Position numbers and translations under genes: made by a program
From: Microbacterium testaceum
GTDB lineage: Bacteria; Actinomycetota; Actinomycetes; Actinomycetales; Microbacteriaceae
Direction: 5' to 3'
DNA: 64,000 nucleotides
Assembly (NCBI RefSeq): GCF_006539145.1
Contig: NZ_BJML01000002.1
Location: forward strand, 372,001-436,000
Notes under the pieces: model-generated
Databases searched by the model: none
What the model was told of the DNA's origin: nothing
What the model saw: only the letters and a program-made list of their open reading frames with translations
Shown here: one piece after another, positions 1,778 through 59,549 of the stretch
Numbering within the stretch: the first letter of the stretch is position 1
Layout: each line of letters begins with the position of its first letter

Positions 1778-2463
1778 CCGTCTCCCTCCTCTCCCTCGAC
1801 ATGGCCGGCACCACGATCGACGAGGGCGGGGTCGTCTACGACCTGCTCGCACGCTGCGTCGGTGACGAGCTCGGCGCTCCGGTTCCGGCCGAGGTTCTGG
1901 CTCCCTGGACGGGCACCGACAAGACCGAGGCCATCCGCGGCCTCCTCACCGAGCTCGGCGGCGACCCTGCCCGCACCGACGCGGTGTATGCCGGTTTCGC
2001 CGCTCAGCTCGACGCGGCGTACGCCGCGGCGACCCCGACGCTGTTTCCCGGGGTGCGCGAGGCGATGGTGTCGCTGCGCGCGGCCGGGGTGAAGGTCGCT
2101 CTGCAGACCGGTTACACCCGCCCGGTGGCCGAGGGGCTCCTGGCGAAGGTCGGATGGGAGGTCGGCACCGACATCGACGCTCTCGCCACGTCGGAGCTCG
2201 TGACCGCGTCGCGGCCCGCTCCGTACCTCGTGTTCCGCACGATGGAGCTCACCGGCATCCGGTCGGTCGACGAGGTGCTGGTCGCCGGAGACACCCCCAA
2301 TGATCTGGCCGCCGGCACCGCCGCCGGGGCGCGGTTCGTCGTCGGGGTTCTCACCGGTGCGGGATCCGCCGCCGATCTGGGACGGTCGCGCCACACGCAC
2401 CTCGTGGGCGGAGTCGCCGACATCCCGGCTCTGCTGCACTCCGCGAGCGAGCTTCCCCACTGA
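1774..2463 (+). CDS. Phosphonatase-like HAD hydrolase (TIGR03351-like)
   Basis: The 229-residue HAD protein begins with the nucleophile motif LSLDMAGTT (Asp9). Its cap region contains GTDKTEAI with Lys50, which aligns by eye with the Schiff-base lysine of phosphonoacetaldehyde hydrolase PhnX (MGLLKIDH context). Later HAD motifs are visible as LQTGYTRP and VAGDTPNDLAAG. PhnX cleaves phosphonoacetaldehyde to acetaldehyde and phosphate; this family is a distinct clade proposed to act on a related phosphonate aldehyde. It overlaps the GntR gene by 4 bp and the next gene by 1 bp, so the three are one operon. C-P bond cleavage is inferred from the retained lysine and the context. Confidence 0.85.
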   Translation: MTVSLLSLDMAGTTIDEGGVVYDLLARCVGDELGAPVPAEVLAPWTGTDKTEAIRGLLTELGGDPARTDAVYAGFAAQLDAAYAAATPTLFPGVREAMVSLRAAGVKVALQTGYTRPVAEGLLAKVGWEVGTDIDALATSELVTASRPAPYLVFRTMELTGIRSVDEVLVAGDTPNDLAAGTAAGARFVVGVLTGAGSAADLGRSRHTHLVGGVADIPALLHSASELPH

Positions 2464-3290
2464 TGACCGCGGCGCGCAAGCTGCTGCTGATCGGCATCGA
2501 CGGCCTGCGCGTCGACGATGCGCTGCGCTCTCCCGCCCCGGCTGCTCGACTCGCGGCTTTCGGGCGCGCGGGAGTCGTGCTGCCGATGACCATGGAGGTC
2601 CCGACCATCTCGGGCCCCGGCTGGTCGTCGCTGCTCACGGGCATGCGGCTCGCCGAGCACGGCGTCGTCGACAACCACTTCCAGGGTCATCGTCTGCGCC
2701 GTTGTCGAGACCTCCTTTCCCGGGCCGTCGACGCGCGCCCGAGCTGCTCGACCTTCGCGGCCGCCGACTGGCCCCCGCTGATCGACCCCGACGGCCCGGG
2801 ACCGATCATCGCGCCCGCGCCCGAGAGGGAACGCGCAGGCCTGCACCACGTCGTCCTGCGCGATGGGGAGTCGAGAGGATATGACCCGATGGATGCCGAG
2901 ATCGCGGCCGCCGCACGTGCGCATCTGCGCGAGACGGGTCCCGACGTGTCGTTCGTCTACCTCGGCGAGGTCGATGAGGCCGGCCACCGGCACGGCGGGA
3001 CCGCGCCCGAGTACACGGCCGCGATCGTGCGCGTCGATGCGCTGCTCGGCGGCATCCTGGACGTCGTCGAAGACCGCGCCGAGACGCACGGCGAGGACTG
3101 GCTCGTCGCCGTCACCACCGATCACGGGCACGTCGATGCGGGCGGCCACGGCGGCGGGTCGGCGCTCGAGCGGCGCTCGTTCCTGGCGCTCGGCCGGTTC
3201 GGCGGTCGCGACTCGCTGCCCGCGGGTCCGGTTGCGCCTCACGAGGTCCGCGACCTCTTGCTCACCGACCTCGGGCTTCTCCCGGCGTAA
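2463..3290 (+). CDS. Alkaline-phosphatase-superfamily hydrolase
   Basis: The 275-residue protein belongs to the nucleotide pyrophosphatase / PhnA-type metallo-hydrolases. Visible metal and nucleophile motifs are LLIGIDGLR (first Asp), VPTISGPGWSSLLTG (nucleophile Thr/Ser region), YLGEVDEAGHRHG (Asp and His), TTDHGH and GGHGGGS (last His). It is shorter than phosphonoacetate hydrolase PhnA (about 400 residues), so a reduced substrate-capping region is likely. The start overlaps the previous stop by one base (TGATG). Context suggests removal of phosphate from a phosphonate or phosphodiester by-product. The substrate is unknown. Confidence 0.8.
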   Translation: MTAARKLLLIGIDGLRVDDALRSPAPAARLAAFGRAGVVLPMTMEVPTISGPGWSSLLTGMRLAEHGVVDNHFQGHRLRRCRDLLSRAVDARPSCSTFAAADWPPLIDPDGPGPIIAPAPERERAGLHHVVLRDGESRGYDPMDAEIAAAARAHLRETGPDVSFVYLGEVDEAGHRHGGTAPEYTAAIVRVDALLGGILDVVEDRAETHGEDWLVAVTTDHGHVDAGGHGGGSALERRSFLALGRFGGRDSLPAGPVAPHEVRDLLLTDLGLLPA

Positions 3291-3361
3291 GGTCGTCCCG
3301 GCGTCTGATCCCACGGGCTCGGCGGCCCGCCGCGCGAGCCCGCCGCCCAGCCCCGCCGCAC

Positions 3362-3433
3362 GGCGGAGGAAAACCCGGGGACGGGAGGACCAATCCCTCG
3401 GCATCCATCCTCCGCCCCCGGAATCTCCTCCCG
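3362..3433. repeat. Interleaved inverted-repeat element, copy 1
   Basis: Arm A GGCGGAGGA (3362-3370) pairs with A' TCCTCCGCC (3408-3416), a perfect 9 bp. Arm B CGGGAGGA (3382-3389) pairs with B' TCCTCCCG (3426-3433), a perfect 8 bp. The order A-B-A'-B' is that of an H-type pseudoknot rather than two nested hairpins. Related copies lie at 3527 and 22102. It may be a REP-like element or a terminator of the convergent genes. Confidence 0.6.
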
Positions 3434-3526
3434 CGGGCTCGACAACCTCGCGCCCGGCCCCGCACCAACCCGCGCCCGGACCCCCGCGCCCCACCGCGCA
3501 GCCCCACCGCATGGCCGCACCGCGCC

Positions 3527-3596
3527 GCGGAGGAAAACCCGGGACAGGAGGACAAACCCCTCGCATCCGTCCTCCGCCCCCGGGATCTCGTCCCGG
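3527..3596. repeat. Interleaved inverted-repeat element, copy 2
   Basis: Arm A GCGGAGGA (3527-3534) pairs with TCCTCCGC (3570-3577). Arm B CCGGGAC (3539-3545) pairs with GTCCCGG (3590-3596). The B sequence differs from copy 1, yet complementarity is kept. It starts 165 bp after copy 1 in the same gap. Confidence 0.6.
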
Positions 3597-3625
3597 AGGC
3601 CCGCAGCGACGACGCGCAGCGGGCC

Positions 3626-6600
3626 TCAGCGCTTCAGACGCAGCGTCACCAGCTGGAACGGGCGCAGATCGAGCTCGACCGCACCACCGGCAGCACTCGA
3701 CACCGCCGCGGCGTCGACCTCGCGCTCGAGCAGATCGGTCTCGACGACGCCCACGACCTCGAAGCCGGCGTCGAGACGCGCGTGCATGCGCTCGCCCAGA
3801 GCCTCGTACAGGCGCACGATCACATCGCCCGATCCGTCCTGCGCGAGCTTGACCGCCTCGACGACGACACCGGGCTGGTCGACCGCGACGAGAGGCGCGA
3901 TCGAGGTCTCGGCGGCATCCGTCACCGTCCGCTCCGGCAGGTTGGTGCGGTATCCCTCGGTGACGGCGTCGACGACCTCGGCGCCCACGACGATCCCCAC
4001 CTCGAGGTGGTGCGCGCCCTGATCCTGGCCGGGGTCGGGGAACTTCGCCGACCGGATGATCGACAGCCGCACGAGTGAGAACGTGCCGCCCGCCTCGCGC
4101 TCGTGACGCGTGATGTCGTGACCGTAGGTGGAGTCGTTGGTCACCGCCACGCCGAAGCGCGGCTCGGCGACCCGCACCCAGCGGTGCGCGGCGGTCTCGA
4201 AGCGAGCCGCGTCCCACGACGTGTTCGTGTGAGTGGGTCGGACGATATGCCCGAACTGGATCTCGGACGCCGCGCGGTCGGTGTGGACGTCGACCGGGAC
4301 GCCGAGCTTCAACAGCTTCTGCTGCTCGTGCCAGTCCACGTCGAGGGAGAGACGCACGGTGCGCGAGCCGTTCGCGAGAGCGATGCGCGTGACGATCGTG
4401 GACGCCCCCGTGCGGCGCTCGACGACGATCGCGCGTCCGTCGAGGCGGACGGCCTCGGCGGAGTCGAGGGGCGTGACGTGGCGCCGGTAAGTCTCGTCGA
4501 TGTCCCACGCGTCCCATTGGGTGGGCGTGTCGCGGAACACCTCGAACAGGCCCGCGGTGCGACCGGCCGGAACCACCTCGCGGCCGCTGTCCACCTCCAC
4601 CAGCGAGGTGATCAGACCGCGTCCGTCGACGACCGCGCGCACGACGCCGTTGTCGAGCACGAAGCCGTCGCCCTCGGCGCTCGGGGTCACGTCGCCGTCG
4701 GGGCTCGCCGGGGCGATCGCGAGAGCGGGAGCACCGGAACGGCGGTGCGGGGCGGCATTCGCCACGACCGCGCGGTCGCCCGTGCCCACGAGCGCCCGGA
4801 GGCTGTCGGCGATGATCTGCTCGAGCTCCGCCGCGATCGCGGCGTAATTGCGCTCGGCATCCCGGTGCACCCAGGCGATCGACGTGCCGGGCAGGATGTC
4901 GTGGAACTGCTGCAGCAGCACCAGGCGCCACAGGCGCTGGAACGTCTCAGCCGGGTAGGCGGCGCCCGTGCGGACGGTCGCGGTGGCCGCCCACAGCTCG
5001 GCCTCGCGCAGCAGGTGCTCGCTGCGGCGGTTGCCCTGCTTCGTGCGCAGCTGGCTGGTGTACGTGCCGCGGTGGAACTCGAGGTACAGCTCCCCCGCCC
5101 ACACGGCCGGGTCGGCGTACTCGGCCTCGGCGGTCTCGAAGAACTCCCGCGGGGTGGAGTGCTTCACCACCGGCGCGCCCTCGAGCGAGTGCGTGCGGGC
5201 GATCGTCGCGGTCATCTCGCGCGTGGGTCCGCCGCCGCCGTCACCGAAGCCGTACGGCAGCAGCGAGGTGCGCGCGCGACCCTTGTCGGCGAAGTTGCGC
5301 TCGGCGTGGGCCAGGTCGGCCGCGGTGACCTCGGAGTTGTACTTGTCGACCGGCGGGAAGTGCGTGAAGATGCGCGACCCGTCGATGCCCTCCCAGCGGA
5401 AGGTGTGGTGCGGGATGCGGTTGGTCTCGTTCCACGAGATCTTCTGCGTGAGGAACCAGCGCGCGCCCGCGGCTCTCATGATCTGCGGAAGGGCACCGCT
5501 GTAGCCGAACGAGTCGGGCAGCCACACCTCTTCGGTGTCGATGCCGAACTCCTCGAGGAAGAACGTCTTGCCCTCGACGAACTGCCGGGCCATCGCCTCG
5601 CCGCCGACCATGTTTGTGTCGGATTCGACCCACATACCGCCCACCGGCACGAAGCGTCCCTCGGCGACACGCGCTTTCAGCCGGTCCCAGAGCGCCGGGT
5701 AGTGCTCCTTCATCCACGCGAACTGCTGCGCCGACGACGACGCGAACACGAACTCCGGATCTTCGTCCATCAGCGAGAGGACGTTGCTGAACGTGCGCGA
5801 CACCTTGCGCGCCGTCTCACGTACGGGCCACAGCCACGCCGAGTCGATGTGCGCGTGCCCGACGGCGTGCAGGACGTGGGCACTGGATGCCGCGGGCGCC
5901 GCCATCAGCGGAGCGAGCACGTCGCGACCGGCCTGCGCCGTGCCCGCGACGTCCTCGGGATCGACCGCGTCGATCGCGGCATCCATCGCCTCGACGAGTG
6001 TTGCTCGGCGCGCGGAGGTGGCGTCGAGCTCGGCGATGAGGCCGTGGAGCAGGCGGAAGTCCTGCAGGAGCTCCCACACCGCGAGATCGCGGAGGCCGAT
6101 CGACATGTCGCGGAGCGTATAGAGAGGAGCGTCGCCCGCGGTGGCGAGGTCACCCAGGTGCGTCGGCTCGAAGGTGAAGAGGCTGCCCACGTCGGGGTTC
6201 GAGGCGGCCTCGACGAGCACGTCGACGCGACCGTCGGGGTCGACCGCGGCCGGGCTGGCGTTGTTGAACGGCGAGACGCCCTTGATGGGGGCGCCCTCGC
6301 GGTTCCAGACGAGCGCTTCGCACTGGAAGCCGCTCTGTCCGGCTGTGAAGCCGAGATCGATCACGAGCTCGGCGACGGTGCCCTCCGGCAGGGAACCGTG
6401 CGCGTCGCGCCACGCAGCGGGGATCTCGCCGGAGACGGCGAACCAGGTCGTCCCCCACGCTCGACCCCACGGCGTTCCGATCGCGAAGGGGCGGTACTCG
6501 GCATCCCGAGCCTCGGCGAAGGTCACGGGCTCGCCCGGCGCCTCCCATGCCTGGATGTCGAGGGGCTGACGGGCGCGGTAGACGGCGGGGGCGAGACGCT

Positions 6601-6652
6601 CGCGGACGAAGCGTTCGATGCGCATCTCGATGAGCGCGGTGCGGTCGTGCAT
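3626..6652 (-). CDS. Alpha-mannosidase, glycoside hydrolase family 38
   Basis: The ATG at 6650-6652 has an AAGGAA ribosome site 8 nt upstream and gives 1008 residues, the usual GH38 size. The open frame continues further upstream, but that part lies over the permease gene in another frame and is not coding. GH38 landmarks are visible: HAHIDSAWLWP (zinc His and Asp), GGMWVESDTN, LPDSFGYSGALPQI (nucleophile Asp) and the HFPPVDKYN region; the long C-terminal beta-sandwich follows. It hydrolyses terminal alpha-mannosyl residues, probably in the cytoplasm since no signal peptide is seen. It is the last gene of an import operon, 29 bp after the MalG-type permease. Confidence 0.93.
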   Translation of the reverse strand: MHDRTALIEMRIERFVRERLAPAVYRARQPLDIQAWEAPGEPVTFAEARDAEYRPFAIGTPWGRAWGTTWFAVSGEIPAAWRDAHGSLPEGTVAELVIDLGFTAGQSGFQCEALVWNREGAPIKGVSPFNNASPAAVDPDGRVDVLVEAASNPDVGSLFTFEPTHLGDLATAGDAPLYTLRDMSIGLRDLAVWELLQDFRLLHGLIAELDATSARRATLVEAMDAAIDAVDPEDVAGTAQAGRDVLAPLMAAPAASSAHVLHAVGHAHIDSAWLWPVRETARKVSRTFSNVLSLMDEDPEFVFASSSAQQFAWMKEHYPALWDRLKARVAEGRFVPVGGMWVESDTNMVGGEAMARQFVEGKTFFLEEFGIDTEEVWLPDSFGYSGALPQIMRAAGARWFLTQKISWNETNRIPHHTFRWEGIDGSRIFTHFPPVDKYNSEVTAADLAHAERNFADKGRARTSLLPYGFGDGGGGPTREMTATIARTHSLEGAPVVKHSTPREFFETAEAEYADPAVWAGELYLEFHRGTYTSQLRTKQGNRRSEHLLREAELWAATATVRTGAAYPAETFQRLWRLVLLQQFHDILPGTSIAWVHRDAERNYAAIAAELEQIIADSLRALVGTGDRAVVANAAPHRRSGAPALAIAPASPDGDVTPSAEGDGFVLDNGVVRAVVDGRGLITSLVEVDSGREVVPAGRTAGLFEVFRDTPTQWDAWDIDETYRRHVTPLDSAEAVRLDGRAIVVERRTGASTIVTRIALANGSRTVRLSLDVDWHEQQKLLKLGVPVDVHTDRAASEIQFGHIVRPTHTNTSWDAARFETAAHRWVRVAEPRFGVAVTNDSTYGHDITRHEREAGGTFSLVRLSIIRSAKFPDPGQDQGAHHLEVGIVVGAEVVDAVTEGYRTNLPERTVTDAAETSIAPLVAVDQPGVVVEAVKLAQDGSGDVIVRLYEALGERMHARLDAGFEVVGVVETDLLEREVDAAAVSSAAGGAVELDLRPFQLVTLRLKR

Positions 6653-21337: not shown

Positions 21338-22081
21338 ATGGCCGACACCGACGACGCGTCCCTGGTGGAACGCGTGACCGAGCGACTCATCACCGCCGTG
21401 GCGGTGGGCGAGTTCCTCCCGGGCACACGGCTCCCCGCCGAGCGCGAGCTCTCGCCCCTGCTGGGCGTCGGTCGGACGACGGTGCGCGCGGCCCTGGACG
21501 ACCTGTCCACGAAGGGTCTGATCGAGCGCCGTCGCGGGCGCGGGGGCGGCACGTTCGTGGCCGAGGAATGGCCCGCGTCGATCGTCGTCGGCGTGGACCG
21601 CTGGTTCGAGGAGCGTTGGAGCGACCTGGTCGACGCGTGCACCGCGAGCTCGATGCTGCACTCTTCGCTCGCACGCCTGGCGGCGGAGCGGCGCACCGAC
21701 GCCGACATCACCGCCCTGCGCGGCCGCCTCGACGACTTCCATTCCGCCGAGTCGGGCGACCACAAGCAGCGCGCCGACAGTCTGTTGCACCTCGCCATCA
21801 TCGAGGCGGCCCACAACACCGCGCTGCGCGACATCCTGCTCGCGCACGAACGCCGCCTGTCCCTCTCGGCCCCCGCGCACCCGTGGGGCGACCGAGAGAG
21901 CCATCGCCGCATGGAGACGCGTGCCGCGCGGGAGCACGACGCGATCGTCCACGCGATCGTCCACGCCGCCCCCGACGAAGCCGCCGAGCTCGCGCGGCGG
22001 CACGTGCAGATCGACCTGGAGCTGTTCAGCGAGTCGCGCGCGTTCGCGCGCCGCCGAGCAGCCGAGGCGGCCGCCGGCTGA
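21338..22081 (+). CDS. GntR-family regulator, FadR/FCD type
   Basis: ATG at 21338, preceded by GGGAG, gives 247 residues. The N-terminal winged helix contains LPAERELSPLLGVGRTTVRAALDDL. The C-terminal half is all-helical, as in FCD ligand domains, with the metal-binding type HLAIIEAAHN and EHDAIVHAIVHAAPDEAAELARRH. It is divergent from the PIP-type hydrolase and probably controls that gene, the permease and the amidase through the AAAGGT-ACCTTT site. The ligand is unknown. Confidence 0.88.
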   Translation: MADTDDASLVERVTERLITAVAVGEFLPGTRLPAERELSPLLGVGRTTVRAALDDLSTKGLIERRRGRGGGTFVAEEWPASIVVGVDRWFEERWSDLVDACTASSMLHSSLARLAAERRTDADITALRGRLDDFHSAESGDHKQRADSLLHLAIIEAAHNTALRDILLAHERRLSLSAPAHPWGDRESHRRMETRAAREHDAIVHAIVHAAPDEAAELARRHVQIDLELFSESRAFARRRAAEAAAG

Positions 22082-22101
22082 TCCCGCCGCTCGTCCCGCG
22101 A

Positions 22102-22174
22102 GCGGAGGAGAATGCGCCTCGGGAGCAAGCCCGCGCGCGCCGACGTCCTCCGCCGCGCGAACCTCCTCCCGAGG
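22102..22174. repeat. Interleaved inverted-repeat element, copy 3
   Basis: Arm A GCGGAGGA (22102-22109) pairs with TCCTCCGC (22146-22153). Arm B CCTCGGGAG (22117-22125) pairs with CTCCCGAGG (22166-22174), a perfect 9 bp. The A-B-A'-B' order matches copies 1 and 2, and again the site lies between two convergent stop codons (GntR and GNAT). Confidence 0.6.
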
Positions 22175-22180
22175 GCGCCG

Positions 22181-22756
22181 TCAGTCGCGCAAACGCCCCT
22201 CAAGACCCGCCCGCACGGCCGGCCACTCTTCCCGGAGGATCGAGAAGTACAGCGTGTCCGCCACGCTGCCGTCGGGCGCGATGCGGTGCTGCCGCAGCCG
22301 TCCTTCGCGCGTCGCGCCGAGGCGCTCGATCGCTCGCGCGCTGCGCTCGTTCCGCGCGTCGCAGCGCAGCGCGACCCGGTTCACGCGCCATTCGTCGAAC
22401 GCGTGCGTCAGCAGCAACAGCTTTGCGGCGGGATTGGTCCGCCCGCCCTGGAAGGCGCGGCCGTACCAGGTCGTCCCGATCTCGACCCGCCCCTGCGCGG
22501 GAACGTATTCGTAGAACGTCGTCGCCCCGCGGACCTCCCCCGTCTCGGCCTCCCGCACGGTGAAGGCGTACAGGCCCGGCGTGGCACGCTGCTGCTCGAC
22601 ACGAGCGGCGTAGGCCTCGACCGAGTCCGCCCACGGGGTCGTCATCCGGCTCCAGAGCTCCGCATCGGTCAGCGCCCAGGCCTCCGTCGCGTCGCGCGGC
22701 TCCGCCGGAGTCAGACGGATGCCGTACCCCTCGAGCGTGGTGTCGTGCGCGGTCAT
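22181..22756 (-). CDS. GNAT acetyltransferase, RimJ/RimL type
   Basis: The 191-residue protein starts with a RimL-like strand (GIRLTPAEPRDATEAWAL). It carries the acceptor-side FYEYVPAQGRVEIGTTWYGRAFQGGRTNPAAKLLLLTHAF and a CoA-pyrophosphate region NVR-like NERSARAIERLGATREGRLRQH. It would acetylate an N-terminus or small amine. The ATG overlaps the MerR stop (ATGA), so the regulator and enzyme are translated together. The substrate is unknown; the pairing suggests an inducible modification or drug-resistance function. Confidence 0.88.
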   Translation of the reverse strand: MTAHDTTLEGYGIRLTPAEPRDATEAWALTDAELWSRMTTPWADSVEAYAARVEQQRATPGLYAFTVREAETGEVRGATTFYEYVPAQGRVEIGTTWYGRAFQGGRTNPAAKLLLLTHAFDEWRVNRVALRCDARNERSARAIERLGATREGRLRQHRIAPDGSVADTLYFSILREEWPAVRAGLEGRLRD

Positions 22757-52100: not shown

Positions 52101-52253
52101 TCCCTGGCCCGCGGCACGAGAACGGGGGATGCGCCCGGAACAGGCCGGCTCACGGGAAACCGCGCTGTTCTCGTGTTCCTTCCCGTCCTCATGACGATGA
52201 ACCACGAGGGGCCGCCGTCCGAATCCGGACGACGGCCCCTCTGCGGCGCGCGC

Positions 52254-58793: not shown

Positions 58794-59549
58794 TCAGCCC
58801 CTGTCGCTGAAGACGCCCACGTTCTCGCCGTCGAAGACGAACTGCACGCTCGTGCCGACCGGGAAGCGCTGGACGAAGGCGGCGGGCATGCCGTCGGCGA
58901 CGACGAACTGCACGGTGGCGGGGAACACCCCGGCTCCGCAGCCGCCGTAGACGAAGTTGCCGCGGAAGCCGCGCGTGTCGTCGGCGTCCACCTCGTCGGC
59001 GTCGAGCAGGTAGAGACAGGGGTTGCGGTTGTCGGTCGCGTCGGTGGCAGCCCGCCCCGTGAACGCCGCAACCCCGTAGTAGTTCTCGTAGCCGCGTTCC
59101 GCGCCCGTGCGCTCACCGAACACGGCGGGAGCCGAGGAGTCCGGGTCGGGCACGAGTGTGTCGACCTGGGGTGCTCCCGCCGTCGCGGTCACGGGCACGA
59201 ACGACACGCTCATCGCGGTTGCCGCGCTGGCGAGGGCGGCGACCACGGCCAGCGAGACCGCCCATGCCCAGAGGCGGCGCTTCGAGTGCACGAGGGGAGG
59301 GCGCTCGCGGCGGATCTCCTCCTCGTCCTCCTCGTCCTCCTCGTCGTGCTGCGCGGACGCGACCGCGGCGCTCGAACCCGCCGGCGGGGCGGGCGGCGTT
59401 CGCGGAGCCGTGGGGAGCCGGTCCTCGCGCTCGAGCTCTTCGAGGTCTCGAAGACGCGAGACGGCGACCGGGTCGTCGGCGATGTCGGCCTCGGGGCCGT
59501 AGGCCCGCGCCCGCAACAGACGCAACTCCTCACGCACATCGTCGTCCAT
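58794..59549 (-). CDS. Single-pass membrane protein of unknown function
   Basis: ATG at 59547-59549 gives 251 residues. An acidic cytoplasmic part (DDDVREELRLLRARAYG, and a Glu/Asp run near residue 70) precedes one helix (LWAWAVSLAVVAALASAATAMS). A roughly 135-residue external domain has two Cys (NPCLYLLDAD and YGGCGAGVF) that may form a disulfide and the repeating VQFV strands. No clear ribosome site is near the ATG. It resembles conserved actinobacterial hypothetical proteins; no function is assigned. Confidence 0.8.
   Translation of the reverse strand: MDDDVREELRLLRARAYGPEADIADDPVAVSRLRDLEELEREDRLPTAPRTPPAPPAGSSAAVASAQHDEEDEEDEEEIRRERPPLVHSKRRLWAWAVSLAVVAALASAATAMSVSFVPVTATAGAPQVDTLVPDPDSSAPAVFGERTGAERGYENYYGVAAFTGRAATDATDNRNPCLYLLDADEVDADDTRGFRGNFVYGGCGAGVFPATVQFVVADGMPAAFVQRFPVGTSVQFVFDGENVGVFSDRG

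Follow-up and report, generated by a model that had tools for sequence, protein, structure and literature searches.

A candidate family of interspersed four-box palindromic elements in Microbacterium

A 64,000-nucleotide stretch of the Microbacterium testaceum genome (RefSeq assembly GCF_006539145.1, contig NZ_BJML01000002.1, positions 372,001 to 436,000; hereafter the window) contains three copies of a palindromic sequence, which raises the question of what such a sequence is and how it came to lie where it does. An earlier note on this DNA had described the copies as inverted repeats interleaved in the order A-B-A'-B' and suggested a new structured terminator, a REP-like mobile element or an RNA. 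Among these options the REP-like element fits best, given dispersed discrete units with a 3'-end bias that form local arrays. All three reported copies are present, with cores at 3365-3431, 3529-3593 and 22104-22169 (the start given for the first was off by one base). Copy 1 spans 3357..3439, its ends being placed 8 bp outside the outer boxes, and comprises the boxes GGAGGA, GGAGGA, TCCTCC and TCCTCC with spacers of 13 and 12 and a loop of 18. Copy 2 spans 3521..3601 (last box TCGTCC, spacers of 12, loop of 17) and copy 3 spans 22096..22177 (second box GGAGCA); none of the three is assigned to a strand. Copies 1 and 2 lie between a called gene at 2463..3290 on the plus strand, whose 3' end points towards them, and a called gene at 3626..6652 on the minus strand, which faces them from the opposite side and which we take to encode an alpha-mannosidase. 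Upstream of copy 3 is a called gene at 21338..22081 on the plus strand, presumably for a FadR-like regulator, and a called gene at 22181..22756 on the minus strand faces it. A four-box scan of the window at a threshold of at least 21 of 24 box letters returned exactly three copies, and none in the reversed window; at 20 of 24 a fourth place appeared within a called gene (59273-59340; control 0), and at 19 of 24 there were six places versus two in the control.

These elements, which we call type 1, share the layout box-N12-box-loop-box'-N12-box', with the box GGAGGA, spacers of 12 (13 in some species) and a loop of 17-18 (19 in one copy and, by eye, about 11 in G047). Within one arm the GGAGGA boxes follow each other at about 18 bp, and the other arm mirrors them. 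Since the sequence preceding box 1 resembles by eye that preceding box 2, each arm can be described as two directly repeated 18-bp units, a feature that the earlier note overlooked. Starting 9-10 bp beyond the outer box there is almost no information content, both in type 1 and in the type 2 introduced below, and the limits of the element lie some 8 bp outside its outer boxes. We detected no left-right polarity: a two-class fit gained 92, against a mean of 128 with shuffled pairing, and 99 of 100 shuffles were at least equal. Box position 6 likewise showed no significant association over 114 elements (best for nested outer boxes, p 0.06). Three genomes gave 47 single-arm matches, of which 15 were absent from the palindrome list and were fetched, the others being assigned by position to palindromes already listed. 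None of these 15 arms was solitary: the opposite arm was present each time and agreed with the boxes at 11-13 of 14 letters, whereas only 0.3% of shuffles attained 11. Outside the ends of either type there was no excess of direct repeats of the kind left by target-site duplication, and type 2 showed a deficit; old target duplications could have eroded. As a separate observation on the window, the pair CGGCATCC / GGATGCCG is its most over-represented 8-mer among those with at least 12 copies (38 and 34 occurrences versus 3.6 and 3.5 expected). The shorter pair GATGCC/GGCATC falls within genes in 135 of 151 cases and is present in 28 of 84 type-1 loops versus 3 of 168 flanks.

Further type-1 copies occur beyond the window. 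Merged searches with three-box patterns identified 21 distinct places in the 3.59-Mb genome of origin, which rest on three boxes, the fourth having been checked in part of them. Across the genus, the three-box pattern matched 30 of 59 genomes and the reversed pattern one (G030), and genomes with one lone single-strand match probably represent chance. Most copies were found via exact boxes, and such patterns miss degraded ones. A pattern requiring a loop of 18-19, which therefore misses loop-17 copies, found the genome of origin and one unconvincing place among 90 genomes of the family (85 genera). In a scan of named contigs, 27 of the at least 116 matching stretches listed showed the four-box geometry. 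A taxon was available for 20 of these, 16 being Microbacterium, Agromyces or Microbacteriaceae, and the remaining four Dyadobacter, a Thiobacillus bin, a Bathyarchaeota bin and Rhodopirellula; among the matches listed, some type-1 elements are in Agromyces. Dispersed copies in the same genome are mostly 70-80% alike (the best between-locus pairs reach 0.89 in G008 and 0.91 in G058), which suggests that movement of the element is old or rare. Local arrays hold two to five copies, and copies at one locus are often the most alike; at L167 (G287) we saw by eye a half copy lacking the right arm between two full copies, perhaps the product of deletion between short repeats. At the mannosidase locus, for which 19 other species were read out of 74 matching genomes, elements lie downstream of the gene in 8 of the 19. 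An Rfam search of positions 3250-3700 gave four matches, all to miRNA families and all far below gathering scores, and the part of the open-licence literature results that we examined contained no published description of these repeats.

A second family came from the rpsT site, where some species carry other palindromes (by eye), one of which led us to elements with the box GAACAGG. These type-2 elements occur in 14 of 59 genus genomes (control 0 of 59), share the type-1 geometry (period mostly 18-19 bp, loop 19-20) and have ends that read CGTC in many copies. The window holds a degraded example, which the earlier note overlooked, at 52117..52191 (strand not assigned). The flanking genes, separated by the gap 52101-52253, were called as convergent, and a terminator-like inverted repeat at 52202-52245 adjoins the element. 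A third pattern, AACTCCTCA...TGAGGAGTT, occurs in 7 of 59 genomes (loci L398-L403; no match in the control), with a total length of 73-75 bp, or 65 in G057, and only its outer boxes established. The rpsT gap of L138 (G027) contains, by eye, tandem repeats of another palindrome that includes GCATTGGGGCG. A four-box scan with the word left free gave 17 matches versus 6 in shuffles, several of them plainly coding, and serves only as a lead. Tentatively, these families may form one superfamily of DNA elements with four sites, recognised by a diverging family of sequence-specific proteins, in which the geometry of about 18 bp would stay constant while the recognition word changes (GGAGGA, GAACAGG, perhaps AACTCCTCA) and the element would double as a 3'-end element and an in-frame linker.

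The placement of all copies between convergent genes, as first described, holds for the three in the window and not as a rule, since 30 of 93 type-1 and 19 of 41 type-2 sites are convergent. Over these 134 sites we counted 49 convergent, 51 tandem, 14 divergent, 17 overlapping a called gene and 3 at an edge (tandem, divergent, gene-overlapping and edge sites being 36, 12, 12 and 3 in type 1 and 15, 2, 5 and 0 in type 2), orientation counts that carry error, the genes having been called by a home-made codon-score script. Element-free gaps of at least 100 bp in the same loci and the window comprised 24 convergent, 61 tandem and 67 divergent. Relative to these, divergent sites are depleted (12 of 78 in type 1 and 2 of 36 in type 2 versus 67 of 152 gaps; p 7e-6 and 3e-6) and convergent sites enriched (p 2e-4 and 1e-5, respectively). 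The 65 tandem copies had a median distance of 82 to the upstream stop versus 156 to the downstream start (p 0.002).

Most of the flags that put an element inside a gene had coding signal on both sides; those at L077, L114, L125 and L324 look like call-boundary errors (no two-sided coding signal or gene end). In-frame type-2 elements were seen in the linker of an FAA-hydrolase/RraA fusion protein at L337, L317, L333 and L343 (at L337 and L317 between the FAA_hydrolase and RraA-like domains), and in two species they are doubled in frame. In-frame type-1 elements were seen at L059, L075, L111, L064, L072 and L134, in a CT_C_D/CT_A_B fusion (between the two domains at L059), in a Radical_SAM/CofH_C protein (after the best Radical_SAM stretch at L064 and L072) and after an AP_endonuc_2 domain (L134). 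Repeat copies within one gene are spaced 99, 105, 105 and 180 bp, all multiples of three. For the FAA/RraA gene, linker anchors could be located at 11 of 37 loci. A type-2 element (20-28 of 28 box letters) is present in six species, whose linkers measure 159-291 nt, the element of G024 being weak (20 of 28, where its own shuffles reach 19), and five species without an element (13-16 of 28) have linkers of 90, 93, 96, 108 and 150 nt. Presence and absence alone fit insertion or loss; insertion would explain the difference.

Taking these observations together, we lean towards reading the repeats as interspersed palindromic elements of the REP/RPE kind, some 82-86 bp long, in which a single short recognition unit occurs four times. 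The left arm would hold two directly repeated units with a period of about 18 bp and the right arm two inverted ones, with a variable centre between the arms. A sequence-specific DNA-binding protein, likely also the disperser, would read the boxes; insertion would account for the dispersal, and copies may persist at sites where their presence costs little, namely behind stop codons and within flexible linkers. Two papers describe REPs as short, dispersed extragenic palindromes, with several classes per genome, between convergent or unidirectional genes near 3' ends (PMC3733652, PMC2817692). The Microbacterium elements resemble REP, REPIN and BIME sequences with a RAYT, as those sources present them, in being dispersed palindromes of several sequence classes placed at 3' ends. 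They differ in that the REP unit is itself a short hairpin whereas the Microbacterium arm consists of two direct boxes without an inverted partner (arm profiles), in that no GTAG-type tag was seen in the Microbacterium consensus, and in the cognate Y1 transposase. The REP-type tyrosine transposase considered in the earlier note (Y1, PF01797, RAYT class) was found in 1 of 59 genus genomes (G041) and is absent from the genome of origin, while the control search found it in 5 of 14. G041 has no type-1 or type-2 pattern match. For these genomes, with Y1 in one of 59, a RAYT origin is not supported.

CGTC-tagged REPs, as described in PMC3733652, have no dedicated transposase and have stems of 8-9 bp with loops of 4-5 bases; they share the CGTC of many type-2 ends, but the elements here are four-box palindromes of 82-86 bp. 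The main text of that paper does not mention Actinobacteria, Microbacterium or Streptomyces. Rickettsia palindromic elements, according to the review PMC10969869, are about 150 bp long and also occur in frame within protein genes, a likeness in behaviour only; among the elements studied here, intragenic copies are a minority. The same review describes BOX, RUP, SPRITE and other MITEs as small interspersed non-autonomous repeats, some of them terminator-like. With MITEs the elements share a discrete inverted-repeat unit at unrelated loci, but the target duplication and the parent insertion sequence that characterize MITEs were not found here, the search for a parent having covered Y1 transposases and the 15 single arms.

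How the arms relate to each other bears on every alternative. All four boxes share the core GGAGG/CCTCC, which gives rise to the A-B-A'-B' appearance and makes nested and interleaved pairings equally available, so that the adjacent bases decide. We reduced 102 type-1 elements to 72 without near-copies, 52 of them from five genomes. In these 52, interleaved flanks matched at 0.490 versus 0.478 and 0.478 versus 0.459 under permutation (z 0.6 and 0.8; -0.8 and 0.8 in the 20 others), and nested flanks at 0.471 versus 0.528 for the inner (z -2.6) and 0.413 versus 0.452 for the outer boxes. The 12-base spacers matched across nested arms at 0.518 versus 0.533, with a single position (10) above permutation (z 3.4). 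For type 2, a set reduced from 58 to 45 elements gave nested z values of -1.6 for the flank, -1.1 and -1.2 for the spacers, -2.4 for the loop and 0.9 and -0.1 for the boxes, and interleaved values of 1.0 and 1.0, with no part clearly above permutation. In 15 orthologous type-2 elements, nested pairing stood at 75.8% versus 75.6% in shuffles and interleaved pairing at 78.2% versus 78.2%. A set of 13 type-1 elements, made up of window copy 3 and 12 elements of the mannosidase locus in the window and in orthologous loci, did show nested covariation (0.210 versus 0.115, reached by 0 of 500 shuffles), with weaker interleaved covariation (0.153 versus 0.111, 6 of 500) and an interleaved excess of paired cells (74.6% versus 70.5%, 1 of 500). 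Since this set mixes two subtypes, 1a and 1b, the arms change together between subtypes and not within one genome. We favour arms that share a single recognition word, or correction of one arm by the other from time to time; a hairpin under selection is the less likely reading.

An alternative that we consider rather unlikely is that the repeats are chromosome-organising or roadblock sites of the host, at which a putative host protein binds the four boxes (in supercoiling, as a domain boundary or as a bidirectional block), with selection for this role driving the spread or emergence of copies. At one orthologous locus, the convergent L351 locus treated below, the boxes change less than 4-fold-like sites, and the spacers and loop do not: identity among the 15 orthologous type-2 elements is 0.864 in the boxes, 0.570 in the spacers, 0.567 in the loop and 0.602 in the flank, and 0.617 at 4-fold-like sites of the adjacent gene, with the proviso that the 15 were selected on box score (at least 20 of 28; element-free loci reach 13-18). 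The four left out of the 19 orthologues (G009, G027, G020 and G172) were degraded; with them included, the box letters agree at 472 of 532 positions over all 19 (after correction of the first box of G000 by eye). Such conservation of the boxes between orthologues would be unnecessary in a dead mobile relic and speaks against the mobile-element reading. Six copies inside one gene are also 0.91 identical in the boxes versus 0.62 elsewhere, and a symmetric array suits convergent genes. The arms moreover tend to be less complementary than permutation predicts, most clearly at the nested inner flanks and the type-2 loop and more weakly in other parts, so what is maintained does not seem to be a stable hairpin. 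Set against a host function are the 29 of 59 genus genomes without a type-1 match, the variation of the box words between species and the intragenic copies, which make a general roadblock unlikely.

Improbable in our assessment is a bidirectional structured terminator or 3'-end RNA hairpin formed by the nested arms. The 3'-end placement would suit it, as would the nested covariation between subtypes and the match at spacer position 10, but the nested excess is absent overall within genomes and among the 15 orthologues. For window copies 1-3 the advantage in folding over shuffles is modest (z -1.6, -2.8 and -2.2; -0.45 for the degraded type-2 copy), whereas L352 of G053 and L390 of G007, an ordinary intergenic copy, reach z -6.6 each, indicating that some copies are able to form strong hairpins. 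The convergent locus of L351 was matched in 359 of 366 genus genomes, and among the best 30 of the 359, with terminators judged by eye, some have a terminator-like hairpin only and others a hairpin together with a type-2 element. Six species (G053, G356, G239, G009, G027 and G055; L352-L355, L357 and L365) carry the element or its strong inner hairpin with the usual terminator absent (by eye), and G009 and G055 show matched changes in that hairpin (by eye). At the rpsT site and the L351 locus, on the other hand, separate, ordinary terminator-like hairpins adjoin the element in most element-bearing species (by eye), and copies lie in frame inside genes, both of which argue against a structured terminator as a general role. 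Terminator use looks secondary and may be a local, later adoption.

The RNA pseudoknot of A-B-A'-B' topology proposed in the earlier note has almost no credence left and we reject it: the interleaved complementarity of the three window copies follows automatically from the shared box core, box-adjacent bases match no better than permutation, the apparent compensatory change stays at permutation level within genomes of both types and among the 15 orthologues, and on the identical 13-element alignment the nested signal is stronger than the weak interleaved one seen between subtypes.

The repeats offer concrete, testable sites in a genus that has received little study, and through them the spread and persistence of REP-like repeats without a RAYT become approachable. 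The boxes could be used as bait for the putative binding protein, with orthologous sites with and without an element already in hand. In the linker copies the repeat adds to protein sequence, as is known from Rickettsia.
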